A stretch of 52,338 nucleotides of DNA from Strigomonas culicis (Eukaryota > Euglenozoa > Kinetoplastea > Trypanosomatida > Trypanosomatidae), in assembly GCA_000482145.1 (NCBI GenBank), contig AUXH01000057.1, positions 1 through 52,338 of the forward strand, written 5' to 3'. Of the stretch, positions 1 through 52,338 are shown piece after piece (the first letter of the stretch is position 1; each line of letters begins with the position of its first letter). Position numbers and translations under genes: made by a program. The notes below the pieces were generated by a model, which ran no database searches, was not told where the DNA came from, and saw only the letters and a program-made list of their open reading frames with translations.

Positions 1-1157
1 CGTCAACAAGAGAAGGAAAGGAACTTTCAATACTGTGCATAGGATTCATAATAATTCAATTTATACTTTGCCAGTATAAACTAAAAATATTTAAAAAAAC
101 ATTATCTTTTACTTGAAAACAAATACGAAAAAAAAAAAACAGAAACAAAAACGAAGTTACTTCATATGAAAATGAAAAAGGGAAGATACTAACACAGTTC
201 GAGAAACGATGTTTCTGAATTTATTATTTATCATTCTCAAACGTTATTTTTTATTATTACTATAATTACATACAAATAACTGAAATGCTTTTTTTTATTA
301 TAGGCAAAAAAAAAAGATTACAGTATAACATAACAGAAAGAAATACCTACAGGACCTAAGCATGGTTTTAATCGTTCCGTAGGAAAAGTGAAAAAAAATG
401 TAGCACACCGTGTTTCCATCGTTCTCAAAATCATCAAAACGCAAATAAGAAAGAAAAACAAAAACAATACTCCATGGAGACAGAAGACGAAAAAACAAAT
501 ATGCTTTTTATTTCTCTTTAGACCTTCTCATTTCCATCGTCTTCATTGTTTCAATTGTTGTTTTGATAGTTGTCTTGCAATAACGATAAAAGTCAGAGAA
601 GAAAACCCGTTTTTATAAAAAGAGAATTTAGAAACACTAAAATATTTAAAAAACAGCGGGGAGAGGAAAATGGGAAAAAAAAAGAATTGAACACTAGTAA
701 AATAGAAAAAAGAAGATATAACACACGCAAAAAAAAAAAGGATTACTTTTTACATGTATCTAGTATTTGACCTTGTGTTACACTCCTTGTTAAAAAAAAA
801 AAAGAAGACAGAAAGAAAAAAAAAAGAAACGTCTCTGATCTCATTGATGAAAGAGAAATCAATACGGAATACAGAACAGAAGAGAATAATAATAAAAAAA
901 AAACATCTTCCATTGCGCTTTTATAACACAATATTTAATAAAAAGATGTGGGGAAAACTAAGGAAAGGAGATATAAGAAGGTGAGTGTATACTCACAACA
1001 ATGCTACTATACCTTTTTCCTTCGTTCTTTTTTTTTTTTGATATAAAACTGTATTACGTGGATTACTACAGAAACGTTTCTTACTAAGCAAAAAAAAAAA
1101 GCACACACAAACATATATATGTATATATATGACCACTATTTTTGTTTTGTGCGTGTG
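1..1157. other. Spacer downstream of member 1
   Basis: AT-rich 3' flank of member 1 with many A8-A11 runs on the plus strand (T-runs on the coding strand). Positions 757-790 weakly resemble stretches near 6221-6270 and 12365-12410, downstream of members 4 and 7. A short TA-rich patch lies at 1112-1131. No gene seen. Confidence 0.6.
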
Positions 1158-2072
1158 TTAGTAAGACTTTCTATTGTGAAAGGCGTGCACAAACTCGGTA
1201 CTCTCCGTGAAGCAGACAAGCGAATGGCGCCGAGAGGACGGCTTCATGTACGAAGGACTGTCGCTGCGGCGCTGTGGGAGCGGCTTGTAGTAGTACTCCG
1301 GCTTTGCCTGTCCCTTCTTGTACTTACTGCCAGTGGCCACTGTGCGGGCCCCTTGTGGGAGCAAAGGGAGACTGCTGCTGGCAGGCGTCAGAAGCACCGT
1401 GCCTGTCATGCTCTGCTGCTCGTAGGCGGGCATATCGAGATAGTAAAAGTCGCTATCCGCCGTGCCGACGCTCCTCTCACACGCTTCGTTCTGCCTCAGA
1501 GAAAAGAACTCGGCGTCCTCCGTCGCCGGCTGCGTCGCCGTGACGGAAGCCAGCTCCACCGGCTGCCGGTCCCCTGACGTCGCTCCGGTCGCCCACTGCG
1601 CGGCCTGCGTTAGGATCTCATCGCTGAAGAAGGAGACCGGCGACGGCGCCGACCGCCGAGGAGCGCCCTCCCATGGCGAGAGAATGACGTTGACGCTCGC
1701 GTCATCCGGCGGCCGCGGCGGCGGTGCCGGCCCCTCCGCGAGCTGCGGCAGCGTCGCGGCGCCGCTGCTGGTGCTGCGGTCGTTCGTGAGGCCGCTCTCG
1801 CGCATCTGGATGGCGGAGCTGCACCGGTGGTAGAAGAGCCGACCGGTCAGGACCCGCTCGTCGTCCTCGCGCGCGGCGGCCTCGAAGAAGCTGCAGCTCG
1901 CCTGAAAGGACGGCAGCGACCTGCACTCGACAAGGAAGCGGCCCGTGGCGCCGTGCGGCGCGGTTGGCGGAGCGGCCGCCTGCGACGCTAACTCGGAGGC
2001 CGAGTCATCACCGTCGCGGCGACAGAAGCGGGGGAGCGACGGCACGACGGGTGGGGTCGGTGTGCAGTACAT
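1158..2072 (-). CDS. Array member 1, box F protein (304 aa)
   Basis: Unrecognised family protein, complete. The head is about ten residues longer than in typical members, but L-P-R-F-C-R-R followed by G-D-D-S (residues 13-24) matches box A. Box B is at 48-64 (V-E-C-R-S-L-P-S-F, then S-F-F-E). A segment N-V-I-L-S-P near 128-133 and D-F-Y-Y-L-D-M near 208-214 match member 6. The C terminus has Y-Y-Y-K-P-L, then a full box F1 (268-279) and box F2 (281-297), with S-L-V-C-F at 284-288. R-R-H-S (281-284) fits a PKA-type kinase site directly beside the V-x-F core. The start is the only ATG ahead of box A. PP1 docking is inferred from the motif only. Confidence 0.82.
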   Translation of the reverse strand: MYCTPTPPVVPSLPRFCRRDGDDSASELASQAAAPPTAPHGATGRFLVECRSLPSFQASCSFFEAAAREDDERVLTGRLFYHRCSSAIQMRESGLTNDRSTSSGAATLPQLAEGPAPPPRPPDDASVNVILSPWEGAPRRSAPSPVSFFSDEILTQAAQWATGATSGDRQPVELASVTATQPATEDAEFFSLRQNEACERSVGTADSDFYYLDMPAYEQQSMTGTVLLTPASSSLPLLPQGARTVATGSKYKKGQAKPEYYYKPLPQRRSDSPSYMKPSSRRHSLVCFTESTEFVHAFHNRKSY

Positions 2073-3066
2073 GGTGAGTAGATCAATTAGATATAGGTAT
2101 ATAGATATAGAGAGAGCTATATGTATATAAGCATAATACTATGGGTAGATTGAGGACGTGTGGAGGAGAGCAGAGATTACCAGAGTTATAAAAGGATAGA
2201 ATATTTAGTGAGGATCTTGTCTTCAACGCAGAGGTCGTTACTTGACTGCTTCCGTTAGTGCAGAGAGGAGAGAGCTCGTTTACATAACACTTGGAATAGT
2301 AAAAGACAAACGTAAATAATGCTCTTACATTCATACTATTTTCTTTTCTAACACAACAGAGACAACAAACAGAGTAAAAGAAGTGAAAAATCAAATAACA
2401 AGAAGTAACTTATTAGAGTACGTCTGCAATGTCGGTAAACCGGACGAACGACGGAACCGCAGAGTGTAACAGTGAGTATTATTGAACATCTTATTGAAAG
2501 AAAAGAGGTAAGAAAGAACCTAAAGACAATAAAAAAGGAATAACGAAAGTGCCCTTTTATCAAACATAAAGCGAAAATAAAAAAAGGTAAATAAAATAAA
2601 AAAAGAATCAAACAAAAAACTGTAAATGATACATTTGGAAACAACGTACATTCCGGTTTTTTTTTTTTTGCAAACGATGCGCTTCAACAGCATCTCAGCA
2701 ATTACTCTCGAGTGTATATTATTATTACTAGATCATACTCTTCAGTTATGCTCATAAAATGCAACTAAAAAAAAAGGGTGGTTGAAATACTCACCACAGT
2801 AAAACATGATAAAAACGCTGTATTTGAAACCTTACTGAAAAAAAAATGGGAAACGGTATCCTCTCATCATTTCCGAAGGAAAAAAAAAAGAAACGAAAAA
2901 AAAAACACAATACGATGATACAAACACAAGAAATGATACTATACGTGATTATAGAACAAACTTTCGAAAGAGACAAACGGACATATAAGTGAACAAAAAA
3001 AAAAGATGCATATATTATTAACACGATGCGTGAAGAAAACAAGCAAAAAAAAAAGGGAATCTAATT
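2073..3066. other. Spacer between members 1 and 2
   Basis: AT-rich, no gene. Positions 2425-2455 (with CTGCAATGTCGGTAAA) resemble 5885-5915 in the spacer between members 3 and 4, so the two spacers share ancestry. A T-run at 2658-2668 is unusual in lying on the plus strand. Confidence 0.6.
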
Positions 3067-3869
3067 TCATGTGTTCAGTATGATCTTCTGTTCCCTTGTT
3101 ACAGTTACGAAGTCGGTAATGGCCGTGAAGCTCACGGCTGCGGAGGGAAGGAGAGAGAAGGGCTCTGTTTGCGTTTCTTCTGCATTGCGGATCATGAATG
3201 GGGTAGCCTCGTCGCCCTGCTAGAGTGAAAGGGGTATGTGCCTCACAGCTGATCCGCCGCTACCACCCTGAACTCACTCGCATTGGGTAATGCTGCCGCG
3301 CAAAGCGCTGCAACACCGTTCGCCTCCACGGTGCAGTGGACCCCGTGCACCTCCGTGATGCTGTCCGCTCCCCTCTCGTCCTGCGTGTGCGCCCGCGTCG
3401 GCGAGCCGCCGTGTTGCATCCCAGCGCAAAAATATTCGCTCGTAAAGCAGGAGAACGGACCCACAGCTGACGGTCGCCGCGCGCCGGTGGAGGGGGGGCC
3501 CGCGAGATTGACCGCGCGAGCAGCGGCGAGCCGGTCGTACGGCGTCCCCTCCTCCGCCGCGGTCTGCTCCATCCGCGGCCGCACGTCCGCCGTGGACACG
3601 GCAGCGCCCCACGTGCCGCTGCCGCTCTGCTCCAGGGGCGCGACAGAGGGGAGGGAGGGGCTGCGGCCTGCGGCGGGATGCATCGCACAGCCTTCACTTT
3701 GGACGTCCAATGCACCGCACTGTGCAGAAACGGTGGAGAGCGCCTGGGTAGATGGACCGAACAGACCACTGCGGCTGCTGGGCGTCTGTCGGTCGGCCGC
3801 CGCCGGCGGCAGCGCGCACTGGTCCGAGTCATTCGCGCTCCGGTGTAACAGGTACAGTGATTTTGGCAT
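3067..3869 (-). pseudogene. Array member 2, C-terminally frameshifted copy
   Basis: The open part (3243-3869, 208 aa from the ATG at 3869) begins MPKSLYLLHR and is closest to members 4 and 7 in the head and to member 4 throughout (S-L-P-S-V-A-P-L-E, G-A-A-V-S-T, A-E-E-G-T-P, V-A-A-D-Q-L). Translation stops right after A-D-Q-L. The missing C terminus is still present downstream in another frame: at about 3067-3200 one reads N-A-E-E-T-Q-T-E-P-F-S-L-L, then V-S-F-T-A-I-T-D-F-V, matching member 4 (V-E-E-T-Q-I-A-P-F-S-L-L and V-C-F-T-A-S-T-E-F-V). So at least one indel and a stop separate the body from box F2. It is either a pseudogene or a box-less short protein. Confidence 0.75.
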
Positions 3870-4703: not shown

Positions 4704-5555
4704 TTATACATGTATGTATTTAAGAGTGATCACGAGTCCCCCACGACGTTTTTGTCCGCCACCTGCGAGGGCCGCTGTGCAGACGGCTGCATGTAAGACG
4801 GACTGTCGCCGCGGCGCGTGGGGTAGGGCGGTGGTGCTCCCTTGGCTCTGGATTCGCAGCGCGCTGTTCTCCCTCGTCGCACCAGCACCTCGTTGCGGAG
4901 CAGAGGGGCGACTGAGCTGCGCCACCTCCATCTGATCCGCAGCCGTCATTCTAACCTCGCTGACGTTTTGAAAGTATGCTGCGCAGAGCGGTGCACCACT
5001 GGTGTTCTCCGTATTGCAGTGCGCATCTTGGCCCTCCCGCATGAAGTGCGTTGACAGGCTCGTCGTTGGGTCCTCATGTATCTCCGGCACCGCCAGTGGA
5101 TTCGATTTGCGTGCGGTTTTGTGAGCACCCACGTCGGAGTCATTCAACAGTGGAGAGACGACGGACAGCCTGCGCATGTTGTCGGCAGGGCGCAGACTCT
5201 GAATACCTTCTACGAGCTCCGTCGGCCCTTTCTGCGGCACAACCGTCGGGGCCGCGATGTGCACGTCCCTCATAGACACGCTCTGCCTGCTGCCGCTAAG
5301 GTCGCTGTCGCTTCCTGTAAGCATCATCACGCATGGTTCCGACATGCTGCAGTAAAGGGAGCGTCCCGCCGCGTGCTCTCCGGTGATGCACTCGTAATAG
5401 TTGAGCATGTCCGTGAAGGACAAGGGAGAGGTGTACTCGAGGAGAGAGCTCCCCGTGGCGCTGGGCAGTGCGGTCATCTGAGGGACTTTCAGAGACGGCG
5501 CCACACTCTCCGAGTCATCATTGTACCACATAGAGAGGTGAGACATGGTGGACAT
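4704..5555 (-). CDS. Array member 3, C terminus out of frame (283 aa)
   Basis: The start is MSTMSHLSMW with N-D-D-S at 12-15 standing for box A; a second ATG three codons in is also possible. Residues 38-55 (L-L-E-Y-T-S-P-L-S-F, then L-N-Y-Y-E) are a diverged box B, closest to member 24. V-R-M-T-A-A-D-Q-M near 201-209 links it to members 2 and 4. Near residue 240 the frame departs from the family: the next frame reads P-P-P-Y-P-T-R-R-G-D-S-P-S-Y-M-Q-P-S, an excellent box F1, and stops at 4730, while the annotated frame reads unrelated sequence to 4704. The V-x-F core of box F2 is destroyed in both frames. It is a decayed or box-less member. Confidence 0.65.
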   Translation of the reverse strand: MSTMSHLSMWYNDDSESVAPSLKVPQMTALPSATGSSLLEYTSPLSFTDMLNYYECITGEHAAGRSLYCSMSEPCVMMLTGSDSDLSGSRQSVSMRDVHIAAPTVVPQKGPTELVEGIQSLRPADNMRRLSVVSPLLNDSDVGAHKTARKSNPLAVPEIHEDPTTSLSTHFMREGQDAHCNTENTSGAPLCAAYFQNVSEVRMTAADQMEVAQLSRPSAPQRGAGATRENSALRIQSQGSTTALPHAPRRQSVLHAAVCTAALAGGGQKRRGGLVITLKYIHV

Positions 5556-6537: not shown

Positions 6538-7374
6538 TCAGGAGGCCCTGGAACTGTGCGCGCCAGACACGAATTCGGTACTAGCCGTGAAGCAAACCAC
6601 TGATGCGCCACGGGGAAGCAGCGGCCGGTGAACGCTGCTTTCGGCGCAGCACTGCGGAAGTAAGAGAGAAAAGGGCGCTATTTGTGTTTCCTCCACATAG
6701 TGGGCACTGTCAGGGGGCCGGCGGACGTCAGCAACTCCCAACTGATCTGCAGCGGCCACGCCGTCGTCGCCGATGTTGGGTAGCTGCGTCGCGCCGGGCG
6801 CGGCACCACCGCGCTCCTCCATATTGCAGTGCGCCCCCTGCGCCGCCGTCATGGGGTGCGCGGACGTGGCTCCCGCCGCCCCCTCCTGAGTATCTATTGG
6901 CTTTCGCACGGTCGCTCGTTGTGCCGCGTAGCAAAACCACTCGCTGCTGAGGCCCGTGAAGGGACGGGACGCAGACCGTCGCCGCACAGTGCCCGCTGCA
7001 GGCAGCAGCCGATTGGCCTCCTGAATGTCCGCTAGCCGTCTGTGAGGGGTACCCTCCGCCACCCCCACTGTCTGCTGCGGGAGCTGCGCATATCCCGTGG
7101 ACACAGCAGCACCGCACGCGCCGCTCCCGCTCCGCTCGACGGGCGCGATAGAGGGGAAGGAGAGGCGGTGGCTCGCGGCGGCCTCCGCCGCATCGCCCAC
7201 CTTCTCCCAGTCCACCACACCGTAGCGGTGATACACGGCCAACAGCGTGCGGACGGATGGACAGAGATCCTGTGCGTCATGGCGGTTTTTCCATCCGTCG
7301 TCCGCCACCGGCGGCAGCCTCCACCCACCAGTGTCATCCGTGCGGTGGCGTGGGGGGTGTAGCGGTCGAGGCAT
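6538..7374 (-). CDS. Array member 4, box F protein (278 aa)
   Basis: Complete member with an MPRPLHPPRH head and T-D-D-T-G-G-W at 12-18, matching T-D-D-S-G-G-W in member 7. The ATG at 7374 is chosen because this head is shared with members 2 and 7; upstream in-frame codons translate the pyrimidine-rich leader into Phe/Ser/Leu and are not conserved. The middle (S-F-P-S-I-A-P-V-E near 72-80, G-A-A-V-S-T near 88-93, A-A-A-D-Q-L near 207-212) is the intact version of member 2. F1 is weak, but F2 is good: S-V-V-C-F-T-A-S-T-E-F-V at 258-269. Conserved boxes C-E are not evident. Confidence 0.8.
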   Translation of the reverse strand: MPRPLHPPRHRTDDTGGWRLPPVADDGWKNRHDAQDLCPSVRTLLAVYHRYGVVDWEKVGDAAEAAASHRLSFPSIAPVERSGSGACGAAVSTGYAQLPQQTVGVAEGTPHRRLADIQEANRLLPAAGTVRRRSASRPFTGLSSEWFCYAAQRATVRKPIDTQEGAAGATSAHPMTAAQGAHCNMEERGGAAPGATQLPNIGDDGVAAADQLGVADVRRPPDSAHYVEETQIAPFSLLLPQCCAESSVHRPLLPRGASVVCFTASTEFVSGAHSSRAS

Positions 7375-8607: not shown

Positions 8608-9444
8608 TCAGGAAAGCCTCGAATTGTGAAAGCCAGGCACAAACTCCGTACTGGCTGTGAAGCAAACCGCTGATCGGCCGCGCGCACGCAGCCGGGGGTG
8701 GGTGGGGCACTCGGCGCGGCGCTGCGGCAGTGAGAGAGCGGAGGGCCGTGTTAGGATGCTCTCCGTTGTGTGTGGCACATCTCCGCCACGGGCGTGCCTC
8801 TCTGTGCTGTCATGGCTGTGGCGGCGGGCCTCCGCCGCTTGCACCGGACACAGCGTGAACGCTTCCAATTCCTCCGTCACAGTCTGCGCCGAAGCAAGAG
8901 GGACCACCGCCGCGTGCCCCCCCGCCGCCTCGCCGCCCGCTGTGGTTACGCTTGAGGGTGTCCCCTGCACCGCGTCGTAGAAACCATCGTCGCTGTCGCT
9001 GGACCCCTGCGACCAGCCAGACAGCCGGCGCGCGCCGTCCGGGGGCCGGAAGGCGACGTAGGCATCCAGGAGCTCGGCGAGGCGCTGCGGTGGCGCGGGC
9101 GGCCCGTCCACCGACGGCAGCGAGAGCGACATGTCCCTATCACACAAGGCTTTGCTACTGCTGACGTCGCTGAGGCTCGTGAGGCCACCCTCCGACAGCG
9201 CGCGGCCGGCAGGCGAAGGGTAGAAGAGGCTGCCGAAGGAAGGCAGCAGCGGCGCGCTCAGCCGTCCGCCGGACAGCAGCTCGTCCACGGCGCACCGCTC
9301 GTGGGAGGGGGGCGGTTGCGGTGAGGTCGGACACGAAAGGCTAGGGCACTTTTTGGGGCTCTGCGCGCCTTCTTTTGCCGCATGTCGCGCGCACATACCG
9401 GCGTCCGCCGTCGCGCGCCGAGGGCGGTAGACAAACGTTGACAT
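8608..9444 (-). CDS. Array member 5, box F protein (278 aa)
   Basis: Complete. The head MSTFVYRPRR is not a standard box A; the ATG at 9444 is the first downstream of the pyrimidine-rich leader. L-L-P-S-F-G-S-L-F-Y (66-75) is a reduced box B. Y-V-A-F-R-P-P-D-G-A-R-R-L (129-141) is shared with member 9 (V-V-F-R-P-P-D-R-A-R-R-L) and, weakly, member 7. S-S-D-S-D-D-G-F-Y (148-156) is an acidic Ser cluster like box C. R-R-H-S-H-D-S lies at 207-213. F1 is poorly kept, but F2 reads R-S-A-V-C-F-T-A-S-T-E-F-V with the V-x-F at 260-262. Confidence 0.8.
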   Translation of the reverse strand: MSTFVYRPRRATADAGMCARHAAKEGAQSPKKCPSLSCPTSPQPPPSHERCAVDELLSGGRLSAPLLPSFGSLFYPSPAGRALSEGGLTSLSDVSSSKALCDRDMSLSLPSVDGPPAPPQRLAELLDAYVAFRPPDGARRLSGWSQGSSDSDDGFYDAVQGTPSSVTTAGGEAAGGHAAVVPLASAQTVTEELEAFTLCPVQAAEARRHSHDSTERHARGGDVPHTTESILTRPSALSLPQRRAECPTHPRLRARGRSAVCFTASTEFVPGFHNSRLS

Positions 9445-9650
9445 GGGCAATGGGGATATCAACTGTACACAAATATAGATGAGAGAGAAACCCTGTCCAT
9501 GAGGAGCAGTGAGGAGAGATGTAGGAGAAAGGGGGGGTTCTATCAAGAAAAGGAAACACTCCACTTGTAGTGTAGATCATTAGTCTCGCATAAGCTCTTT
9601 TCTTCCCTTGTCTGGCTTCCTGAAACACGTAAAGAGGAGAATATATCACG

Positions 9651-9666
9651 TATATATATATATATA
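9651..9666. repeat. TA dinucleotide tract
   Basis: Eight TA units, about 200 bp upstream of the member 5 start. Confidence 0.9.

Positions 9667-10503: not shown

Positions 10504-10532
<29 letters not shown>
10504..10532. repeat. TA dinucleotide tract (29 bp)
   Basis: Uninterrupted TA run ending about 35 bp beyond the stop of member 6, so it should lie within its 3' UTR. Confidence 0.95.
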
Positions 10533-10535
<3 letters not shown>

Positions 10536-10566
10536 GCACGTGCCACAGGGTCTCTCTGAACGCTAT

Positions 10567-11460
10567 CTAATGCTTTCTGTGAAAACCAGGCACGAAATCG
10601 GTGCCCTCCGTAAAACGGACGGCGGATTGCCGGCGGGAGGACAGCCGCGTCAAGCCCGTGCCGCCCGCTGCTTCCTGCAACGGTGGATCCGAGGAGGGGA
10701 GAGGATGGCTCTCTGCTGTATTCTGTGCGATGGCAATCGGCGCGGCCGGGCCATCCTCGGAGACCGTGGGGAGGCTCACCTCAACAGGCACTGAGAAGTC
10801 CATACTTCTTAGGCTGTTTTCCCTGACACTCGGCATATCTGTAAAGGAATAATACAAACATCTACTACCATAGTTACTACAGCTGGCATTCCTGCCATCC
10901 ATCTGACTCAGAGAGAGCAGCTCCACGCTATGCGCCGCCGTCTGCTTCTCAGCGTCCGTCCCATCGGTGCCCACCGCCACCTGCAAGGCTCTTTGGAGTG
11001 CCGCCTCGCGGAAGAAGTCATTGCTAACAAACGACAGCGAAGAAGCGACAGACTGGCACGGTGCGGCGTCGAGGGGACTCACGATGACACTGACATCCAC
11101 CACATTGGAGAGCCGCTTCTGCGACACTGGGGGGTCCTCCGCCGGCTGCTCACTGAGCTGCAGATTGTTCATGGAGAGCGCGTTCACACTACCGGGACTC
11201 GTCTGGCAGCTCTCCAGCTTCGACACCGCTGCGCTGCAGTGCGGTGCCGTGTGGCGGCGCATGAGCGGCGCTGCATCGCCTTCGTGCGTCGCGGTCTCGA
11301 AGAAGGTGCGGTTTGCCTTGACGGACGGCAGCGCGGTGCTCTCGACATAAAAGCGACCCGTGGTGCCCTCAGGCGCTGACTTCTGGGAGGCCATGAGGGA
11401 AGCTACATCACCTTCTCTGTTCTCACTATCCTGGTGAGGGAGGAGAGAGACTGTCGTCAT
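10567..11460 (-). CDS. Array member 6, box F protein (297 aa)
   Basis: Complete, starting MTTVSLLPHQ. Box A is diverged (D-S-E-N-R-E-G-D-V-A-S-L at 11-22). Box B is clear: Y-V-E-S-T-A-L-P-S-V, then T-F-F-E, at 38-55. Q-K-R-L-S-N-V at 114-120 and V-S-V-I-V-S-P at 123-129 match member 1. Y-Y-S-F-T-D-M at 203-209 corresponds to box E's F-Y-Y-T-D. F1 is lost, but F2 is strong: S-S-R-R-Q-S-A-V-R-F-T-E-G-T-D-F-V (274-290). R-R-Q-S is a PKA-type site two residues before the Val of V-R-F. The start is supported by a short leader with a candidate splice acceptor at 11475-11476. Confidence 0.82.
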   Translation of the reverse strand: MTTVSLLPHQDSENREGDVASLMASQKSAPEGTTGRFYVESTALPSVKANRTFFETATHEGDAAPLMRRHTAPHCSAAVSKLESCQTSPGSVNALSMNNLQLSEQPAEDPPVSQKRLSNVVDVSVIVSPLDAAPCQSVASSLSFVSNDFFREAALQRALQVAVGTDGTDAEKQTAAHSVELLSLSQMDGRNASCSNYGSRCLYYSFTDMPSVRENSLRSMDFSVPVEVSLPTVSEDGPAAPIAIAQNTAESHPLPSSDPPLQEAAGGTGLTRLSSRRQSAVRFTEGTDFVPGFHRKH

Positions 11461-11474
11461 GGAAAAAGGTGATA

Positions 11475-11511: not shown

Positions 11512-11520
11512 GTATATACG

Positions 11521-12485: not shown

Positions 12486-13847
12486 TCAGAAAGACCTTCT
12501 ATTATTCACCGACACGAACTCGGTGTCCTCCGTGAAACGTACCAAGGTGCGCCGTCGGTACGGCAGGCGGTTGCGGGTGAGGCCGTCCCCCGGCTCCTCC
12601 GGTTGCGCCCTCGCAGGTGACTCCGCAGCGCTATTCGCCGAGAGTGTGGAGAGACCGGCGTCGCTCGGCGAGGCCAACCCGTCTGCAACCGTCGTGCTCG
12701 TCTCGTTGTCACTGATCGGGTACGCATAGTAACAATACAGACGGTTGCTACCGTAGCTGCTACAGCTGGTATTCCCGTCCTTCGTCTCCTGTAGAGAGAC
12801 CTGTTCCACCTCCCCCGCCATGGGCGGCTTCGCACCGGCCGCGGCACCGGTGTCCGCCGCCGTCGGTGCGGACGACCACGGCGCCGCCACCGGCGTGGGG
12901 GACACCGCAGCGACCTCCACCGGCTGCGGGACACGGTGGGGCGGCCCGGGCTCCGCCTCCTGACACGGTGCATCCGTTTCCGTCGCAGTCGACAACGTCG
13001 TCCGCTGCGCCGCGTTGCTGCCACCCCCAGTGCTATCGTGGGAGGTGCGAGACTTGGTGGGCACCCTCTGTTCCTCCACAGCGGTGAGAGGGACCGGTTG
13101 GACTTCCACCGGCTGGGAGAGACGCTTCTGCAGCACCGACTTCGTTGGCCGGTCCGACACTTCCGTGACCGCCGTCGTCAGTGGTGTATTGCGCCGTGCT
13201 TTGCTGCTGGAGCCTTCTCCGCTGACTTTGGATGTGCGAGACTTGGTGGGCCCTTCCTGTTCTTCCACAGCCGTGAGCACAACAGCGTGGCGCTCCACCG
13301 GCTGGGCGAGACCCTTCTGCAGCAGCTCCTCTCCATTCGAATGAGCCGAGACATCCGTGTCCACCACATGCGGTGGTGTCGTCCGCTGCGGTGCGTTGCA
13401 GAAGCTCTCGCTGCTGTCGGCGGCACCTCCCGCCTTCGCGGCCACCCGCTGCAAGCCCTCTGGGGAGCTGAAGGCAACGTAGCCATTCAGGACCTCGGAG
13501 AGAGCCCTCGGCGGCCTCGCCTGTGCACACCGCGGACGCTCACCCTGCGGCGTGGGCCTCGCGGACCCCCCGTTGCTCCCGCCGCTGCTCCGGCCGCCCT
13601 CGCTCCGTGTGAGGGACGGGGCGCACGGGTAGGACACACGGCGGCTCGCGGAGGGCGGCGCTGCTGCGCTCATACGGTGGTGGCCCAACGCGTGGAAGCG
13701 GTCATGGAAGGTCGGCAGCGCGCCGCCCGAAGGGAAAAAAAGATCACTGCGGCTGCTGCGCGTCTGGCGGTCCCCCGCCGCTGGCGGCAGTGCCCACCCG
13801 CCCGAGTCATCCGTGTTCCGGCGCGCGCTGTACAACGGCTGTCGCAT
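12486..13847 (-). CDS. Array member 7, longest member with internal repeats (453 aa)
   Basis: Complete and by far the longest copy. The start at 13847 gives MRQPLYSARR with T-D-D-S-G-G-W, matching members 2 and 4; longer in-frame starts only translate the leader. A-L-P-T-F-H-D-R-F (43-51) is box B-like and Y-V-A-F-S-S-P-E-G (123-131) matches the F-R-P-P-D segment of members 5 and 9. Residues about 152-325 hold roughly two and a half tandem repeats of 63-64 aa, each with R-x-T near its start, then L-Q-K-x-L-x-Q-P-V-E, T-A-V-E-E-Q and P-T-K-S-R-T-S. L-Y-C-Y-Y-A-Y at 370-376 is a weak box E. F2 is strong: R-R-R-T-L-V-R-F-T-E-D-T-E-F-V, with V-R-F at 436-438. Confidence 0.82.
   Translation of the reverse strand: MRQPLYSARRNTDDSGGWALPPAAGDRQTRSSRSDLFFPSGGALPTFHDRFHALGHHRMSAAAPPSASRRVSYPCAPSLTRSEGGRSSGGSNGGSARPTPQGERPRCAQARPPRALSEVLNGYVAFSSPEGLQRVAAKAGGAADSSESFCNAPQRTTPPHVVDTDVSAHSNGEELLQKGLAQPVERHAVVLTAVEEQEGPTKSRTSKVSGEGSSSKARRNTPLTTAVTEVSDRPTKSVLQKRLSQPVEVQPVPLTAVEEQRVPTKSRTSHDSTGGGSNAAQRTTLSTATETDAPCQEAEPGPPHRVPQPVEVAAVSPTPVAAPWSSAPTAADTGAAAGAKPPMAGEVEQVSLQETKDGNTSCSSYGSNRLYCYYAYPISDNETSTTVADGLASPSDAGLSTLSANSAAESPARAQPEEPGDGLTRNRLPYRRRTLVRFTEDTEFVSVNNRRSF
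12872..13394 (-). repeat. In-frame tandem repeats inside member 7 (63-64 aa units)
   Basis: The arginine of the R-x-T motif recurs at residues 155, 219 and 282 of member 7, a period of 64 and 63 aa. Each unit continues through Q-P-V-E and P-T-K-S-R-T-S; the third is partial and more diverged. The length is a multiple of three, so the frame is kept. Confidence 0.75.
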
Positions 13848-39887: not shown

Positions 39888-40712
39888 TTAGCGCTTCTCC
39901 GGCGTCTTACATCCGTGTACAAATTCCGCCGCCGCCCCCAAGCTTGCGAGGGGGCGACGTGGCGCGGGCAGCCGCTTGTACGACGCACTGTCACCGCGGC
40001 GCTCCAGCTGTGCCGTGGCCTTGTGTGCACCACCCGCGCTGGGTGTGCGGACGCGCTGGCCCGCAGCACTTACACCAGATCCACACGCGGTGGCCACACC
40101 CGTAGCAGAGGGGCCTGTCGGGCCCTCCTCCCCCTCCGTCTGGTCGGCGCCCACGCTCTTGACGGACGGCCTGTTCACCTGCAGTGCCTCTAGCGGATGC
40201 GTGGGCGGGGCGGCGGCGGTGGGGCCCTTCCCTCTGTCCGCTCCCGCCGCATGGGCATGCGTCCGCAGCGGTGAGGCTAACCGCGCGTCGCCGTCTCCAC
40301 TCGCGCGACGGACCAGGCGCGGGGAAAGCGCAGGCAGCTTCTCTGCGCCAGAGGACGGGCAGGGGGGGCGGTGCGCCGAGGCCCCGTCCGGGGAGGGCCG
40401 CAGCGGCGTCCGCTTCTTCGGCTGGTAGAAGCGGGCGCTCGTCGCGGTGGGGTCGTACGTGCTGCTGCTGCCGTCGCTCGAGAGGCCGCCGTCGCCCGTC
40501 GCGAGGGGCGTGGCCGGGCACGGCGGCAGCGGCGCCTCGTCACCCCGCGCGCACACGTCGGAGTAGTGGTAGCGGTCCTGGAAGGACGGCAGCGCCACGC
40601 ACGCGACGCAGACCTGCACCGGCGCGCCGCGCGACGCGGTGCGCCTACCGGACGGCACGCCGCACTCCGAGTCATCGTTCTCGCGGCGGCAGAGCCGAGC
40701 GAACGCGGACAT
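39888..40712 (-). CDS. Array member 21, C-terminal box lacking V-x-F (274 aa)
   Basis: Complete frame from the ATG at 40712. A: MSAFARLCRRENDDSECG. B: V-A-L-P-S-F-Q-D-R-Y-H-Y-S (38-51). C: G-D-G-G-L-S-S-D-G-S-S-S-T-Y-D, then S-A-R-F-Y (73-96). R-R-A-S-G-D-G-D-A (135-143) is a remnant of box D. E is replaced by a Pro/Ala-rich stretch. F1: L-E-R-R-G-D-S-A-S-Y (236-245). F2 reads P-R-R-P-L-A-S-L-G-A-A-A-E-F-V-H-G (251-267): the Val and Phe of V-x-F are Ala and Leu, yet E-F-V-H-G is kept. If the box docks a partner, this copy should be impaired. Confidence 0.8.
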   Translation of the reverse strand: MSAFARLCRRENDDSECGVPSGRRTASRGAPVQVCVACVALPSFQDRYHYSDVCARGDEAPLPPCPATPLATGDGGLSSDGSSSTYDPTATSARFYQPKKRTPLRPSPDGASAHRPPCPSSGAEKLPALSPRLVRRASGDGDARLASPLRTHAHAAGADRGKGPTAAAPPTHPLEALQVNRPSVKSVGADQTEGEEGPTGPSATGVATACGSGVSAAGQRVRTPSAGGAHKATAQLERRGDSASYKRLPAPRRPLASLGAAAEFVHGCKTPEKR

Positions 40713-41252: not shown

Positions 41253-41290
41253 CAATCGGGTGCAGTCATACGCAGCTGCCACAACAAGAA
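41253..41290 (-). repeat. Conserved spacer element, copy in 21/22 spacer
   Basis: AATCGGGTGCAG, then CATACGCAGCTGCC. The part 5' of this on the plus strand has been displaced by the retroposon insertion. Confidence 0.45.
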
Positions 41291-42017: not shown

Positions 42018-42947
42018 CTAGATTTCCCGGTAACATAAGATAACACCGAAGAAGTCATTCTGTTTCTCCCTCCTCGACGCCGTAAAAGCCGGCAAGAACT
42101 CGGTGCACTGCGTGAATCCCACAAGCGGTGGGCGTCAAGAGGACCGCCTCGAGGAGGGGGCGTCTGTGCTGCGCGGCAGTTAGAGCTGATACTTGTGCGT
42201 AGTACCCATGTTGGGCGTTGCGGGAACAAGGCTCGTATCGGCCTCGACTGTGCGGTCCACAGCGCCGCTACCGTTGTGAACGGTGAACAGCCGGCTGATG
42301 TACTGGAAGTACGCACGACTCCTTTCGCCCCTTAGACCCCAGGCGTCGGCATCCGCCACCTCCTTCGCGCTGAGCGGCGGTGCCTGCGGCTGCTGTGGGG
42401 GCGGAGGGGCCGCGGCAGCGACCACCATTTCGTCCGGTCGAGCGTCCTGAGCATCCGTCCGCGGTGGCAAAACGGGCTGGGCGTCAGCACTACAAAAACA
42501 CTCGTCATCAGTATTTGTGAGAAGTAAGGGTAGTGGCAGCCTCTGCCATCCGCCGCCCTGGGAGATAGGGGTCGCCACCACCACCTCTCTGAGCGGCATA
42601 ACGGGCGCCGCTCTCTTCGAGAGGAGCCGATCGTGGTCGTAGAAGTGCATACCCCTCATGGACGCGTCGCTGCTGCTGCCGTCGCTGGAGAGGCCACACT
42701 CGCCCGTCACGAGGGACACGGCGGAGGTAGAGACCTTGAGTGGGCACGGGGAGGCCGGTGTCGCATCGTCTGTTGGGCTGCACTCGGGGTAGCTCAACCG
42801 CTCCTTAAACAGTGGGGGCGAGCTGCACTCGACGAGAGAACGACCGGTGGGGCTGTGCGTTGCGGACCGTCTCGCGGAAGTGAGTGACAGCAGCTCGCAC
42901 TCGGAGGCGTCGCTGTTGCGGCGGGAGGGTGGAGCAAAGGCGGACAT
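42018..42947 (-). pseudogene. Array member 22, box F2 behind two nonsense codons
   Basis: Open from MSAFAPPSRRNSDASE (42947) to a TAA at 42180 (255 aa). B: L-V-E-C-S-S-P-P-L-F-K-E-R-L (38-51). C: G-E-C-G-L-S-S-D-G-S-S-S-D, then H-F-Y (82-103). D is degenerate (L-T-N-T-D-D-E-C-F-C). E: L-S-A-K-E-V and A-Y-F-Q-Y-I. Reading through in frame, L-P-R-S-T-D-A-P-S-S-R-R-S-S, then TGA (42135-42137), then R-P-P-L-V-G-F-T-Q-C-T-E-F-L-P-A-F matches member 23 almost residue for residue. Compared with member 23, TAA replaces Tyr and TGA replaces Arg. The open frame next ends at 42018. The box was lost by point mutation only, so recently. Confidence 0.82.
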
Positions 42948-43917: not shown

Positions 43918-44796
43918 CTACCTCCTATATGCCTTAAAGGCCGGCAAGAACTCGGTGCTCTGTGTGAAGCCCACAAGCGGTGGACGTCGAGATGCGGACC
44001 GCCTCGAGGAGGGCATGTCTGTACTGCGCGGCCGATAGAACTGCCTTGTATGTGTATTGCCCGAGTTGCGCGGCACGGGAAGACCGTTGGTGACCGCCAC
44101 GTCTATACGATCCACTGCGGCACCGCCGTCGGGACCGCTGAGCAACAGATGGGTGTAGTAAAGGAAAGAATGGCTCCTGTCGTCTCTTTCATTCACATCC
44201 GCATACTGCAGCTCCTTCGCCTTGAGCTGCGGCACCTTCGGCAGTCGCCCCGGCGCGGTGGTGGTGGTGGCGTTTTCCCTTTTTTCCTTCTGAGTGACAC
44301 GGGCGTCCGTCCGCGGTGGCGCGACCGTTTGCGTGTCTTCATCACAAAACGAAACATGGATGTCTGCAATGCGCGGCTGTAGGGACGGCCTCTGCCCACT
44401 GCTTGCATGAGGGTCTGTGGTCAGCGTCGGCACTTCCGCGGGCCCTGTCGCGGCCGTCACCTCCATCGAGGGGAGTCGATCGTGTTCGTAGAGGCTCGTG
44501 CTCCTCATGGACGGGGAGCTGCTGCTGCCGTCGCCGGAGAGGCCACACTCGCCCGTCACGAGGGACACGGCGGAGGTAGAGGCCTTGAGTGCGGACGGGG
44601 AGGCCGGTGTCGCATCGTCTGCGGGGCTGGACTCGAAGAATCGGAACCGCTCCTTGAAGGGTGGGAGCGAGCTGCACTCTACCAGATAGCGTCCCGTGGC
44701 GGGGGGCGCCGGTTCCTTGGTGGAAGTCGTGAGTGAGGGCAGACCACAATCTGAGTCTTCACTGCCGCGGCGGGAAAAATGCAGCAGCGATAACAT
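43918..44796 (-). CDS. Array member 23, archetypal box A-F protein (292 aa)
   Basis: Complete. A: MLSLLHFSRRGSEDSDCG. B: Y-L-V-E-C-S-S-L-P-P-F-K-E-R-F-R-F-F-E (37-55). C: T-G-E-C-G-L-S-G-D-G-S-S-S-S (81-94). F-C-D-E-D-T (150-155) replaces box D. E: G-R-L-P-K-V-P-Q-L-K-A-K-E-L-Q (183-197) and S-F-L-Y-Y-T-H-L-L-L-S (210-220). F1: Q-F-Y-R-P-R-S-T-D-M-P-S-S (252-264). F2: S-R-R-P-P-L-V-G-F-T-Q-S-T-E-F-L (269-284). It shares a 46-bp identical stretch with member 22 (44535-44580 versus 42687-42732) around box C. The start at 44796 is fixed by box A. Confidence 0.88.
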   Translation of the reverse strand: MLSLLHFSRRGSEDSDCGLPSLTTSTKEPAPPATGRYLVECSSLPPFKERFRFFESSPADDATPASPSALKASTSAVSLVTGECGLSGDGSSSSPSMRSTSLYEHDRLPSMEVTAATGPAEVPTLTTDPHASSGQRPSLQPRIADIHVSFCDEDTQTVAPPRTDARVTQKEKRENATTTTAPGRLPKVPQLKAKELQYADVNERDDRSHSFLYYTHLLLSGPDGGAAVDRIDVAVTNGLPVPRNSGNTHTRQFYRPRSTDMPSSRRSASRRPPLVGFTQSTEFLPAFKAYRR

Positions 44797-45856: not shown

Positions 45857-46499
45857 TTAGTGATAATCATCGTACATACGCATGTATATCTGTGTTGCAC
45901 AACAGTCGTGAATGAACTCACTCCTCGCCCCGGTGAGACCAACCAGTGGTTGCTCACGTGCGCGAAGCCGCCTGCGTGAGGGACCTTCCGCGCGGCGGGG
46001 GGCGTGCCGCTCCCCTCTGTACTGTCCTGCTCGCCCTCACAGAGCATCCCCATCGGGGAAGAAGTTGTTGATGAGCCGTGGCGGACGGTGCGGCACCTTC
46101 TTCTCGTTCCTTGCAAGGGAAGGCACCGGCGCCGAAGTGGTCACCTCCGCGAGCCGCCTCTGTGGCGTCGCGTCCTCCAGCCGCACGCTCTGCTGCTCGT
46201 AGAAGCAGGCGCTCATCAGACAGAGGTCGCTCATGCTGCTGTCGCTGGAGAGGCCGTTCTCGAGAGACGGGGCGCACGGGTGGGACTTAGCCTGGCAGAG
46301 AGGGAACGTCACCGCGTCCTCCCCTGTCGTGGAATGATAGAAGCTGAACAGGTCCGTGAAAGGACAAGAGAGAGGTGCACTCAAGGAGAGAGCTCCCTGT
46401 GGCGTGATGCAGTGCTGCTGTCGCAGAGGTCGGGACAGAGGCCACACCAGCGCCCGAGTCATCACTGCCGTGTGGATGAACACTGGGCAGCGTCAGCAT
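45857..46499 (-). pseudogene. Array member 24, multiply frameshifted relic
   Basis: Three frames must be combined. From the ATG at 46499: MLTLPSVHPHGSDDSGAGVA (box A) and S-L-L-E-C-T-S-L-L-S-F (box B, like member 3). From about 46365 in a second frame: F-T-D-L-F-S-F-Y, L-E-N-G-L-S-S-D-S-S-M-S-D plus C-F-Y-E (box C, close to member 15) and L-I-N-N-F-F-P-D-G-D-A (box D). Box E is missing. In a third frame near 45900-45950: R-E-Q-P-L-V-G-L-T-G-A-R-S-E-F-I-H (box F2 with Leu for Phe), ending at 45857. At only about 640 bp it has both frameshifts and an internal deletion: a pseudogene. Confidence 0.78.
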
Positions 46500-47687: not shown

Positions 47688-48617
47688 TTACCTAAAGGCG
47701 TGAACGAACTCCGTACTCGCCGTGAAGGCCACCAGCGCACGACGCCGAGCGGAAGGTCGCATGTAGGAGGGCGTGCCCGTGCGGGGCTGCGGTAAGGGCC
47801 TGTAGTAGTACTCCACTTGCGGTTTATTGCTAGGTGTGCTGCTGACATCGGCTGCCACAGGGCGCGCTTTCGTATCCGCCGCGTCGATATGGTCTGCAGC
47901 AGCACTGTCATTCTCACAGATCAGAGTCAGGCTCCTGTTGTAAACATATGCTTGACTATCTTCCTTACTGTGAGCATCTCCATCCTTTCGTTGCTTCACC
48001 TTGACGCGAGGCACCTTGGGCAGCTTCACGAGCGCGCTGGCAGCGCCGGTGCTGTCCCCCTTGTCGTCCCCATCACCGAGGAAGAGCGTCGGGCTACTGA
48101 GTGGTGGGGGCAATTTGGGACTGCTGAGGAATGGAAACAGCTTCGGACTGCTCATGTGTGAGAAGAGGTTTGGGGTGGTAAGTGGTGAGGGTGACGGCGG
48201 CACATGCCGGTGGCTGCTCTCGGTTGGAGAAGGAAGTGGAGGCACATGCACTAGCTCCACCAACCCATTCACTAAAGGCGTCGCACCGAGCCGTACGCTC
48301 TCCCCTTCGTAGAAGTGGCTGCACACCTGCCAGAAGTCACTGCCGCTGTGGTCGTTGGGCAGCTCGTACGGATCGGTGGGGTGGCGTGGCGTCGGCAGGG
48401 AGGACGAGGCACCGCAGGGGGAGCTAGACGCGTCGCCTCTGTTGGCGCGCGCCTCAAAGGAGTGGAAGCTCTCTCTCAGCGGCGGCAGCGCCATGCTCTC
48501 GACGCGATAGCCGCCCATGGGGCTGGGCGGTGACAACTGTTTGGCGGCGGCGAGGGGGGCCACGCCACATCCCGAGTCATCCTTGTCACGAGCGCAAAGC
48601 CAGGGTAGTGCGGACAT
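47688..48617 (-). CDS. Array member 25, box F protein with S-S-P-x-L repeats (309 aa)
   Basis: Complete. A: MSALPWLCARDKDDSGCGVA. B: Y-R-V-E-S-M-A-L-P-P-L-R-E-S-F-H-S-F-E (37-55). C: N-D-H-S-G-S-D, then H-F-Y-E (88-104). In place of box D a Pro/Ser-rich stretch has three near-repeats of S-S-P-[KT]-L (156-179), followed by L-G-D-G-D-D-K-G-D-S-T-G (180-191), identical to member 26. E: L-V-K-L-P-K-V-P-R-V-K-V-K-Q (196-209). F1: Y-Y-Y-R-P-L-P-Q-P-R-T-G-T-P-S-Y-M. F2: A-R-R-R-A-L-V-A-F-T-A-S-T-E-F-V-H (290-306). The start is backed by a T-run and CTAG acceptor near 48646. Confidence 0.86.
   Translation of the reverse strand: MSALPWLCARDKDDSGCGVAPLAAAKQLSPPSPMGGYRVESMALPPLRESFHSFEARANRGDASSSPCGASSSLPTPRHPTDPYELPNDHSGSDFWQVCSHFYEGESVRLGATPLVNGLVELVHVPPLPSPTESSHRHVPPSPSPLTTPNLFSHMSSPKLFPFLSSPKLPPPLSSPTLFLGDGDDKGDSTGAASALVKLPKVPRVKVKQRKDGDAHSKEDSQAYVYNRSLTLICENDSAAADHIDAADTKARPVAADVSSTPSNKPQVEYYYRPLPQPRTGTPSYMRPSARRRALVAFTASTEFVHAFR
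48018..48084 (-). repeat. 67-bp identical segment, copy in member 25
   Basis: Identical base for base to 50048-50114 in member 26, although the sequence on either side diverges sharply. It encodes the L-G-D-G-D-D-K-G-D-S-T-G to V-K-L-P region. Confidence 0.95.
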
Positions 48618-49699: not shown

Positions 49700-50578
49700 C
49701 TACCTCCTTCCCACCTTACAGGTGGGCACGAACTCTGTACTCGCCGTGAAGCCGACCAGCGTGTGCCGTCCAGACAACGGCCGCCTGTGAGAGGGACTGA
49801 CGGTGTGGAGCTGCGGGCACGGCGTGTGGAACGGAGGCTCGCGCTGCCTACTCCTCTGATTACCTGCGATGCTGCCGTCGGCCGCCATCGTGTAGCGGTT
49901 TGTGTCCGCCGCCTCGCCGTGGTCGACAGCAGGCGTACCATTCCCACAGCTGAGCAACAGGTTCGTGTAGTAAAAGCACGATTGACTGTCATCCGTGATG
50001 TGCGCCTTCATCTCATTTATTTGCTTCACGGTCATTTGCGGCACCTGGGGCAGCTTCACGAGCGCGCTGGCAGCGCCGGTGCTGTCCCCCTTGTCGTCCC
50101 CATCACCGAGGAAGTGTTTCGGACTGTTGAGGGGTGCGAAGAGACTAGGGCTGTTGAGCGGCGAGAGTAGCGGGGGCGCAAACCTGTTGCTGTGGGTGGG
50201 GGAGGGGAGCGGAAAGACACTCGCCCCTTCCGCGTGCGCATTTCGTAAAGGCAGCGCATCGGCTGGTGCGCTCGTGTAGGCGTACGTGTGCCTGCGCGGC
50301 ATGAATAGGTCGCTGTTCTGTATGAGGTCGCTTCTGAGGCTGCGCGTGCACCTCGAGAGGGGAATCGCGCATGGGTCTGATGGGATACCATGGGTGGGGC
50401 CTGCCGCCTCGTGGTCCCTGCGGTTCCACTCAAAGAACATCAAATCCTCCTTGACCGGTGGTAGTGAGACGCCCTCCATCATGTAGGGCCCAGTGGTGTC
50501 GTGTGAGATCGTGGGAGAGGCTACGTCGCCTTTCCGTTCATCCGTGCCGTGACTTGAAATCCAGGGCAGGGATAACAT
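49700..50578 (-). CDS. Array member 26, box F protein (292 aa)
   Basis: Complete. A: MLSLPWISSHGTDERKGDVA, with the acidic half weakened. B: M-M-E-G-V-S-L-P-P-V-K-E-D-L-M-F-F-E (33-50). Box C is not visible. S-P-L-N-S-P-S-L-F-A-P-L-N-S-P-K (139-154) is an S-P-x-L-type repeat like member 25, then the shared L-G-D-G-D-D-K-G-D-S-T-G (157-168). E: L-V-K-L-P-Q-V-P-Q-M-T-V-K-Q-I (173-187) and S-C-F-Y-Y-T-N-L-L-L-S (200-210). F1 is lost. F2: S-G-R-H-T-L-V-G-F-T-A-S-T-E-F-V (269-284). The start at 50578 is fixed by box A. Confidence 0.86.
   Translation of the reverse strand: MLSLPWISSHGTDERKGDVASPTISHDTTGPYMMEGVSLPPVKEDLMFFEWNRRDHEAAGPTHGIPSDPCAIPLSRCTRSLRSDLIQNSDLFMPRRHTYAYTSAPADALPLRNAHAEGASVFPLPSPTHSNRFAPPLLSPLNSPSLFAPLNSPKHFLGDGDDKGDSTGAASALVKLPQVPQMTVKQINEMKAHITDDSQSCFYYTNLLLSCGNGTPAVDHGEAADTNRYTMAADGSIAGNQRSRQREPPFHTPCPQLHTVSPSHRRPLSGRHTLVGFTASTEFVPTCKVGRR
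50048..50114 (-). repeat. 67-bp identical segment, copy in member 26
   Basis: Partner of 48018-48084. Confidence 0.95.
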
Positions 50579-52184
50579 GAGCGGGGGTGGAGAGAGAGTG
50601 GTGTCTTGTCTTGAACGCACACACACAAAACAGAAAAAAAAATGTGTATAGATTCTGTTGGTACAGGGAAGGGGAGTGGGACGTTGATGGAAGCATAAAG
50701 GAAGCATGCAAAGAGGTACAGGAGAGAAAGACGCACTTCTCTTCTCACGTCCTCACATAACAAAAGGTAAACACACACATATATACTAAAACATATAAAG
50801 ATATATACTTTGTGAGTAAAGATGATTCTACGTTTCACGTTCCTCTTGTTTTTAAAATTACCGCTTACCATTCATAAAGAAAACGAAAGAATAACGAACA
50901 CAATTGTATGGAAAAAAAAAATGATACTCTTGTATTTGTAGGGTATTCACCGGGTTTAGTCTGATGCACGCACGATGGCATAGTTGCCCAACTTGAGAGT
51001 TTGCATTGAGGAAAAAATAGAAAAAAGGGGAAAACAAACACGCAGTGTATTATTATAGAAAACCTCATTAGCAATGATAGAAAAAAAAACACCAAGAAAA
51101 AAGAGAAAAGATGTCTATTGCCTACTATTTACTTCTTCATTAGGTTGTGTTATGGTGTTTGTTAGATTCGTGTTCTCATAATCTTACATACCTCTCGTTG
51201 ATAAATACAAACATGAAATGGTGCACGTTTGTGGCAGAAATGAACAGGAAAAAAAAAAGAGGTAGTCAAGCGAAGAAAGGAGAAGAAATAATATAAAAGG
51301 GAAAAAATAATACTGGAGAACCGATATCCGAAGTCAGAAAAAAAAATAGTATTAAAACACTACGGAACATGTTCTTATTTATAACGTCCCATGTCTTTAC
51401 TGCACAATCAATCGTATAACGACAGAGAAATATAAACAAAATTGGTTTATATATAGTATATGGTATTTAACTAATTACCAAAAAAAAAGACGGAAAAGAA
51501 TCCGATGGTGTATCAAACCACTTTGTTTGATGATACACATATGGGGGAAAGGGAAGAAAAAAAAAGAGAAGAGGGATTATTGCAAAGAAAATGGGAAAAA
51601 AAAACACAAAATAAGAATTAAGGAGAGAACAATACATTTCATTCCGCGTGAGTGTTTACATGATTGATACATCACAAGCGATGGAATACATTAAACTACC
51701 CAATTGTTATTTTACTATTTTTCCGTATTAAGTTCACCATAAAATATTTTGCTATACAGTACCTCATGCGATGTGCGAGAAAGAGGTCCTCTATCTCCTC
51801 AAAATCCAAGGATCCCTGTCCTGGCAGGGTGCAGGGGTGGGCGGGACGGATTTTCGAAAGAAAAGAAAGAATACTCTTTAAAGTACAGAAGAGGAGGACC
51901 AAGCGAATGAAACCAAATCCATCATGATATACACTTCACGTTCGAGAACTAATCGTTCTCTTCTCCATTACACTCCTTGCCTACTCCGTAATTCCATTTT
52001 CTCCGCGAGCTACAAAAAAAAAAAAATAGTGTACCACACGAAAGATCTCCAATTAAATATATGTTAGAACAAGTTTTTTTTTTGCTTTCATCGTATCAAG
52101 TGTAATTTGTACTTGAAAGAAAAACTAGGATTGAGTGCTGCCATATATCTATTTTCATACAAGCATTATAGAGTTGCGTTTCTC
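50579..52184. other. Spacer between members 26 and 27 (1.6 kb)
   Basis: AT-rich, longest spacer. An isolated GC-rich patch at 51770-51860, unlike the rest, is discussed as a finding. Purine-rich plus strand at 51540-51605. No confident gene. Confidence 0.6.
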
Positions 52185-52338
52185 TTAGTGCAGTGGTTTG
52201 GCCTTACTGAAATGTATAAACTCCGTACTGGCGGTGAAGCCTACGAGTGCGTGGCTTCGGCCCGACATGTGCATGGGAGAGGGGCTGCTGTCGCTACGCT
52301 TTGAGTAGAGCTTGTGATAGTTCACTTGTGGTATTTTG
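52185..52338 (-). CDS. Array member 27, C-terminal end only
   Basis: The 5' part lies beyond the right edge. The visible 50 codons read K-I-P-Q-V-N-Y-H-K-L-Y-S-K-R-S-D-S-S-P-S (the Y-Y-K-P and F1 region, with R-S-D-S), then S-G-R-S-H-A-L-V-G-F-T-A-S-T-E-F-I-H-F and a stop at 52185-52187. Box F2 is intact. It shows that the array continues past the window. Confidence 0.82.
   Translation of the reverse strand, partial: KIPQVNYHKLYSKRSDSSPSPMHMSGRSHALVGFTASTEFIHFSKAKPLH

Follow-up and report, generated by a model that had tools for sequence, protein, structure and literature searches.

A 52,338-nucleotide stretch of Strigomonas culicis DNA, which is the whole of contig AUXH01000057.1 (the window, hereafter also C57), is occupied by tandem copies of what is most likely one protein-coding family, here called family A. 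Together with a second tandem family (family B) and several flanking genes, it belongs to a locus of about 111 kb that we propose, from sequence, as a candidate lineage-specific set of proteins binding protein phosphatase 1 (PP1). Family A proteins end in a box (the C box) resembling the RVxF-PhiPhi motif through which regulators dock on PP1, and we put the prospect that it is such a motif, carried on disordered, non-surface bodies, just short of an even chance. Taken by family, the odds of PP1-binding tails are better for family B than for family A, for which they are roughly even. The case was swung towards PP1 by the neighbourhood, where the long gene product P0124, the tails of flanking genes and family B show RVxF-like ends.

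One probably coding family with a conserved tail

The window carries 27 consecutive minus-strand family units, detected as profile matches, the 27th being cut at the contig end; their open reading frames (ORFs) are mostly of 255-310 aa and spaced at about 1.95 kb. The array continues for about 15 kb into the overlapping contig C288 with eight further units, giving 35 in total, 26 with a single ORF and nine broken. The family profile was built from the 26 single-ORF units (21 on C57 and 5 on C288), and all family A counts refer to these 26, the nine broken units being left out; start codons were taken as those aligning with the family, not as the first Met. As a profile built from the very units that it then recovers proves little, leave-one-out profiles are the fair test, and with these every one of the 26 members was recovered, at scores of 34.8-258 bits, while shuffled members (200 shuffles of each) scored 13.0 at most. 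Searching C57 and C288 with the profile (E up to 1) gave 52 minus-strand stretches against four weak plus-strand ones (best 0.24); the same search of reversed segments of both contigs gave six matches (best 0.011). The reading frames have mean GC contents of 0.64, 0.57 and 0.76 at the first, second and third codon positions (GC1, GC2 and GC3), and dN/dS lies at 0.41-0.65 in the five most similar pairs. A non-coding repeat was judged unlikely in view of the leave-one-out protein profiles, the frame-specific GC3 and the constraint on the C box.

The median pairwise identity among members is about 29%. Pairwise similarity drops with distance in the array (Spearman -0.33, none of 2000 permutations being as low), for which reason repeated local duplication fits the data. 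Three of eight pairs gave usable nucleotide alignments; in these, only 7 of 34 indels had a length divisible by three, so that a tightly constrained protein is not favoured, third codon positions were clearly faster in two of the three, and the codon-position bias was weak.

The members share, in fixed order, an N-terminal SRRxxDDS stretch, an N box (of the type YLVECxSLPSFKERFxFFE), GLSSDGS, LPxVP, a YYT stretch and the C box, RRxxLVxFTxxTEF(V). Among core columns, conservation peaks at V, F, T and F within the C box, where each is kept by 91% of those members that have a residue at the position. Taken over all pairs, the C box has a pN/pS of 0.51, the other boxes range over 0.71-1.14 and the unboxed rest stands at 0.91, values that are rough because synonymous differences are near saturation; by this measure the C-terminal tail is the most clearly constrained part of family A. 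The proteins are probably unfolded or disordered, as suggested by their composition (0.58 disorder-promoting and 0.25 order-promoting residues, versus 0.44 and 0.44 in PP1) and by an AlphaFold model of one member made with a 22-member alignment, which has a mean predicted local distance difference test score (pLDDT) of 52.6 and exceeds 80 only in blocks 271-280 and 281-290, the C box.

An earlier note on the window had described a large tandem family of at least 27 paralogues, none interrupted, sharing short boxes in fixed order between diverged linkers. The 27 consecutive units, their recovery by leave-one-out profiles and the clustering of conserved columns in a few boxes, most strongly at the C-terminus, bear this out, and the disorder that the note expected is what composition and model predict. 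One correction applies: the array runs past the edge of the window, with eight units beyond it. Overall the earlier reading is partly supported, and the C box, P0124, family B and the nine broken units are additions to it.

The C box as a putative PP1 docking motif

In the parts of PMC10731240 available, PP1 is described as drawing its specificity from regulators that share little except short motifs; the docking motif RVxF, [KR]-X0-1-[VIL]-X-[FW], is preceded by basic residues and often followed, at a distance of 5-8 residues, by a hydrophobic pair, PhiPhi. The arrangement VxF-x5-hydrophobic occurs within the last 60 residues of 20 of the 26 family A members and in 0 of 39 control ORFs (a non-random set from loci L024-L049 and L064, selected by an automatic length and GC3 filter), its rate in shuffles being 0.018 per protein. 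All 20 members have one to three K/R within six residues before the V. Strict RVxF in its V/I form was found before the last 30 residues in none of the 26 family A proteins and none of 11 from family B.

The same genome yields 23 Metallophos matches. Ten of these loci were inspected and include four PP1-like catalytic subunits (L024, L025, L029 and L031), L029 and L031 being so called by inspection only. In an alignment of L024 with human PP1-gamma that spans 297 residues, nine of the ten groove residues checked are identical and V264 is replaced by I. One of these ten positions, L289, we take to belong to the groove; the other nine are named in the available text of PMC10731240. Judged from its sequence, a PP1 with an intact groove is present beside the array.

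The mechanism that we propose starts from repeated local duplication, which would have made the 35-unit tandem family of mostly 255-310-residue proteins. Their shared function would most likely be seated in the C box, RRxxLVxFTxxTEF(V): its V and F would sit in the RVxF pocket of PP1, the hydrophobic pair five residues on would take up the PhiPhi pocket, and the upstream RR would contact the acidic patch. Each protein would thus tether PP1 by its tail and its fast-changing body would bring different partners or, alternatively, the body may do little beyond occupying PP1 (titration), the array as a whole supplying many PP1 targeting or titrating subunits. In this scheme we infer PP1 binding by the C box, expression of the genes and the targets regulated.

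A second tandem family and the flanking genes

Family B comprises about 14 units at about 2.2-kb spacing, located on contig C434 (738-2036 and 3469-4461, L057) and on contig C246 (L063, L065 and L066), and reaches the left contig end. Family B counts use 11 proteins of the about 14 units; the units near C246 2089-3061, 4296-5255 and 6189, broken or fragmentary, are excluded, and the tails of their fragments are RIVSF, RVSF and RIVSF. Strict RVxF lies within the last 30 residues of 9 of the 11 proteins versus 2 of the 39 controls (Fisher 1.1e-6; shuffles, 0.028 per protein), and over the last 60 residues the counts are 9/11 and 6/39. The tails include RRVSF, KKVSF, KSVSF, RRVFF and RIVSF types; V and F are invariant in eight aligned tails, and the two proteins without a strict tail are those at C246 13140 (with VSF after a stop) and C246 15296. 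One modelled member has a mean pLDDT of 45.2 and is predicted to be disordered. Families A and B could not be aligned over their full length (hhalign probability 0.4%), and we report them as separate families because whole-length homology was not found. The member at C434 738-2036 also holds internal copies of a stretch starting LPSPP(V/L)(Q/R)R.

A phosphatase of this genome is identical over 268 residues to a partial protein phosphatase of S. culicis, and for the tail of a GAPDH the best PDB matches are four glycosomal enzymes of trypanosomatid type, in keeping with S. culicis, a trypanosomatid of insects, as the source. Searches of the own genome covered 17.7 Mb in 670 contigs, and the counts are lower bounds. 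With two member queries, family A was found only on C57 and C288. One family B member found at least nine units of its family; shared motifs were the basis for assigning the five leftmost, and for one of these an alignment (25% identity) served as well. On another contig, at C208 28126-28194, 23 residues match the beginning of a family B member (E 0.046).

Directly downstream of the array lies the minus-strand gene of P0124 (C434 12519-15971, corresponding to L058 2519-5971), a protein of 1150 aa with disorder-like composition. Its N-terminus, KRFLLETKPRVSFKDRCTFFESK, matches the array N box with a score of 19.4 versus 11.7 for the best of 20,000 shuffles. This N box contains RVSF-x5-FF, a match that none of the 20,000 shuffles equalled, and the tail, KSAVRFVKNRVLL, fits the family A C box (p ~0.005). 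P0124 may have founded the array or may be an elongated sister of it. The product of C434 9925-11274 ends in GLHAHFTVSTDFR, which fits the C box better than any of 5000 shuffles; RRQVSF stands near the end of C434 7630-8988 and RRRRNSVQF near the end of C288 16218-17612. The flanking genes at C434 5785 and at C288 18308, 20386 and 21821 have no VxF tail. The one at C288 18308-19501 (L022 8308-9501), right of the array, has a hydrophobic N- and C-terminus, resembling in this a surface or glycosylphosphatidylinositol-anchored protein, and no Pfam match.

Several of our results weigh against a PP1 docking role. Only 4 of the 26 family A members have the strict [KR]X0-1[VIL]X[FW] at the C box (units 10, 16, 18 and 20; a 30-residue end limit gives three), the usual place of the basic pair is 4-5 residues ahead of the V, and in six members the C box is absent. 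Strict RVxF is not rare in itself, being present over the last 60 residues of 6 of the 39 controls, a set that is small, and a loose L-form match lies outside the C box in 4 of the 26. A Phe three residues past PhiPhi is found in 7 of the 20 members with the box. A matrix of family B tails places only 10 of the 26 array tails above the 99% shuffle level and gives p 0.09 for the P0124 tail RKSAVRFVKNRVLL, and searches of the Protein Data Bank (PDB) with tails found no PP1 regulator. Within family B a hydrophobic residue at the x5 spacing is present in only 5 of the 11 proteins, several tails ending too soon. The high pLDDT of the C box may merely reflect its conservation.

Layout of the array

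The 27 window units comprise 21 with a single ORF, five broken across frames (units 2, 14, 15, 19 and 24) and one partial, and no other gene was recognised in C57. The features of the window are, in order:

1-354, no strand: overlap with the right end of contig C434 (16175-16516), 96.6% identity, 12 gaps
1158-2072, minus: unit 1, 304 aa, C box VCFTESTEFV
3085-3869, minus: unit 2, broken over two frames
4704-5555, minus: unit 3, single ORF without terminal C box; C-terminal part of the profile matches another frame at 4760-4867
6538-7374, minus: unit 4, C box VCFTASTEFV
8608-9444, minus: unit 5, C box VCFTASTEFV
10567-11460, minus: unit 6, C box VRFTEGTDFV
12486-13847, minus: unit 7, about 453 aa, C box VRFTEDTEFV, middle enlarged and matched by the profile twice, with overlap
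15097-15882, minus: unit 8, single ORF without C box
16933-17757, minus: unit 9, single ORF without C box
18925-19704, minus: unit 10, C box with strict RVxF (PRVGF)
20824-21651, minus: unit 11, C box VGFTAGTEFV
22971-23786, minus: unit 12, single ORF without C box
24737-25507, minus: unit 13, C box VGFTDSTEFV
26984-27834, minus: unit 14, broken over frames, C box VRFAENTEFV at 27011-27040
29007-29788, minus: unit 15, broken over frames, C box VVFTEGTEFV at 29034-29063
30923-31732, minus: unit 16, C box with strict RVxF (RLVGF)
32836-33633, minus: unit 17, most of N box missing, C box VTFTEGTVFI
34807-35652, minus: unit 18, C box with strict RVxF (RQVSF)
36718-37184, minus: unit 19, broken
38061-38921, minus: unit 20, C box with strict RVxF (RLVGF), 26 residues before the end
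39888-40712, minus: unit 21, degenerate C box (ASLGAAAEFV)
42069-42947, minus: unit 22, ORF 42180-42947 ends before the C box
43918-44796, minus: unit 23, 292 aa, reference member, C box VGFTQSTEFL
45896-46499, minus: unit 24, broken, profile pieces in three ORFs
47688-48617, minus: unit 25, C box VAFTASTEFV
49700-50578, minus: unit 26, C box VGFTASTEFV
51832-52338, no strand: overlap with contig C288 1-507, 99.8% identity, units 27 to 35 beyond
52185-52338, minus: unit 27, 3' end only, complete on C288 354-1151

The enlarged middle of unit 7 holds a repeated QPVE..LTAVEEQ-like stretch. The last unit, number 35, lies at C288 14493-15323. C434 itself yielded no array unit; P0124, the long relative, lies downstream on that contig. 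C434 overlaps C246 with 100% identity over 414 bases, and the far end of C288 overlaps contig C301 at 93%. By arithmetic from the contig overlaps, the whole locus runs on the same strand from C246 base 1 to C288 17612. The nine broken units reflect decay or assembly error. Where the window overlaps C434 (1-354), the sequence is homopolymer-rich and shows the 12 gaps, and indels of this kind may explain some of the broken units.

Pyrimidine tracts upstream (0.90) were hardly richer than those downstream (0.88) and are uninformative. Spliced-leader exon patterns had no exact match in the whole assembly, and contig ends truncate those GAPDH and ribosomal L3 genes that were found; together these suggest that identical tandem copies were not assembled. 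We attribute the missing spliced-leader match to such unassembled repeats, which is not proven.

Relation to known families

Ten array members had no Pfam match at E up to 1, and NCBIfam gave no match for two array members, one family B member and P0124. A PDB search returned a single chance-level match (E 1.7), and the window showed no tRNA and no Rfam match at gathering score. Against a database of 5.8 billion proteins, a single-member query and a 22-member profile (7996 candidates scored) returned only the window's own proteins (two and three, respectively). This database includes annotated proteins of Angomonas, Leishmania, Leptomonas, Novymonas, Phytomonas and Trypanosoma. Membership of a known family was considered and rejected, the flanking-gene matches to PF25652, PF06222 and PF03092 and the family B match to PF17714 all being below cut-off. 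In the available parts of the open-licence literature on RVxF families, trypanosome PP1 and Strigomonas gene families we found no description of such a locus. These searches support a family that is unfamiliar and matches no named one.

The hydropathy profile had no 19-residue window above 1.6 in any of the 26 family A members, counted from the family-aligned starts, nor any such segment in the 11 family B proteins. HASP-like tandem proteins are N-myristoylated and start with Met-Gly; this start was found in 0 of 26 family A and 0 of 11 family B proteins. An in-frame Met lies 29-85 codons upstream in 7 of the 26 members, and the extensions that it would add have a GC content of 0.39-0.56 versus a mean of 0.65 in the coding sequence; several are hydrophobic, with a maximum hydropathy of 1.61. 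We read them as T-rich 5' leader rather than protein, which is not proven.

These results agree with the claims of the earlier note that the family is unfamiliar and that the array is not a usual surface-antigen array, the proteins being probably non-surface by hydropathy and Pfam. Its claim that signal peptides and membrane segments are absent stands for the aligned starts and is weakened by the seven upstream leaders, one of which reaches 1.61. Of the searches that it proposed, those of the own genome (two member queries) found the family only on C57 and C288, and those of the protein database gave no match outside the window's own proteins; restriction to one genus or clade is nonetheless weakly supported because, for want of annotation, most window proteins were themselves not returned (three came back).

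The closest likeness that we found is to PNUTS of Leishmania tarentolae, drawn on features and not on sequence homology. As presented in the text available from PMC10731240, it is small (29 kDa) and disordered, has no domain beyond RVxF-PhiPhi-F, and carries a basic run before VxF/W and a Phe after PhiPhi (HV..F118), mirrored in 7 of 20 array members. Unlike in the array, where the motif is terminal, the spacing five and the tandem paralogues many, its motif (RVCW) is mid-protein, with 14 residues between RVxF and PhiPhi. Family B recalls KNL1, which in the portion of PMC6715587 at hand has an RVSF-type core switched off by Aurora B phosphorylation, B tails such as RRERRVSFTGE and WREKKVSFSEE being of this type; the KNL1 motif, however, lies near the N-terminus together with SILK. 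As a speculation, the Ser inside the family B RVSF cores could permit a phosphorylation switch as in KNL1. Multigene families of the same species in the available part of PMC3616161 are amastin (14 genes counted), gp63 and cysteine peptidase, all named families, with amastins and gp63 at the surface, whereas the array members have no Pfam family (ten members); among the gene families named there, none resembles the array.

Alternative explanations

The C box could instead be a docking or localisation motif for another partner, for instance a cytoskeletal or flagellar component, its likeness to RVxF-PhiPhi being coincidental or partial. We consider this unlikely. In its favour, the C box of 22 of the 26 members departs from the strict consensus, RVxF-PhiPhi makes no demand for the strongly conserved T and E of FTxxTEF, and PDB searches with tails found nothing. 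It is countered by the fact that family B, in the same locus and not alignable with family A, carries canonical RVxF tails on 9 of 11 proteins, and by the RVSF-x5-FF of the P0124 N box, so that separate lines converge on the motif. Less probable still, in our estimate, is a decaying relic of birth-and-death evolution, amplified by unequal crossing-over and under weak selection, with most copies idle. The 9 broken units of 35, the pN/pS of 0.91 in the unboxed rest (rough, with synonymous differences near saturation), the 7 of 34 indels that are multiples of three together with the weak codon-position bias (three pairs), and the greater likeness of neighbouring units would all fit such a relic, but 26 open frames are recovered by leave-one-out profiles, GC3 (0.76) departs from GC1 (0.64) and GC2 (0.57) in a frame-specific manner, and both the C-box constraint and the dN/dS of 0.41-0.65 in the five closest pairs count against it as well.

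We give very little credence to a species-specific array of surface or secreted antigens. Like many trypanosomatid surface families, this one is tandem and fast-evolving; 7 of 26 members have the upstream in-frame Met with an often hydrophobic leader, one at 1.61, and the membrane-like protein encoded at C288 18308-19501 is nearby. From the aligned starts, however, no member of family A (0/26) or family B (0/11) has a segment above 1.6, the leaders concern those seven members only and are GC-poor, and no Pfam surface family was matched. A role of host proteins acting on the bacterial endosymbiont of Strigomonas, for example in coordinating its division, appears equally remote: only the organism itself suggests it, as S. 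culicis carries an endosymbiont (PMC3616161, available part), whereas the symbiont-bearing Angomonas deanei has proteins in the database and none matched the family, and no targeting evidence points that way.

Implications of a possible PP1-binding repertoire

Returning to PP1 docking, a wider proposal, which we regard as doubtful on present evidence, is that S. culicis holds a private repertoire of about 50 units (about 40 open frames) in at least two non-alignable tandem families, most of them ending in a PP1 plug. The plugs would be kept and the bodies would drift, so that the locus may act as a fast-evolving generator of PP1 holoenzymes or titrators. If this were true, the locus would be a natural experiment in the evolution of phosphatase regulators, in which two non-alignable families keep a terminal motif and the bodies of the larger one drift, and tens of genes without a named family would gain a directly testable function.

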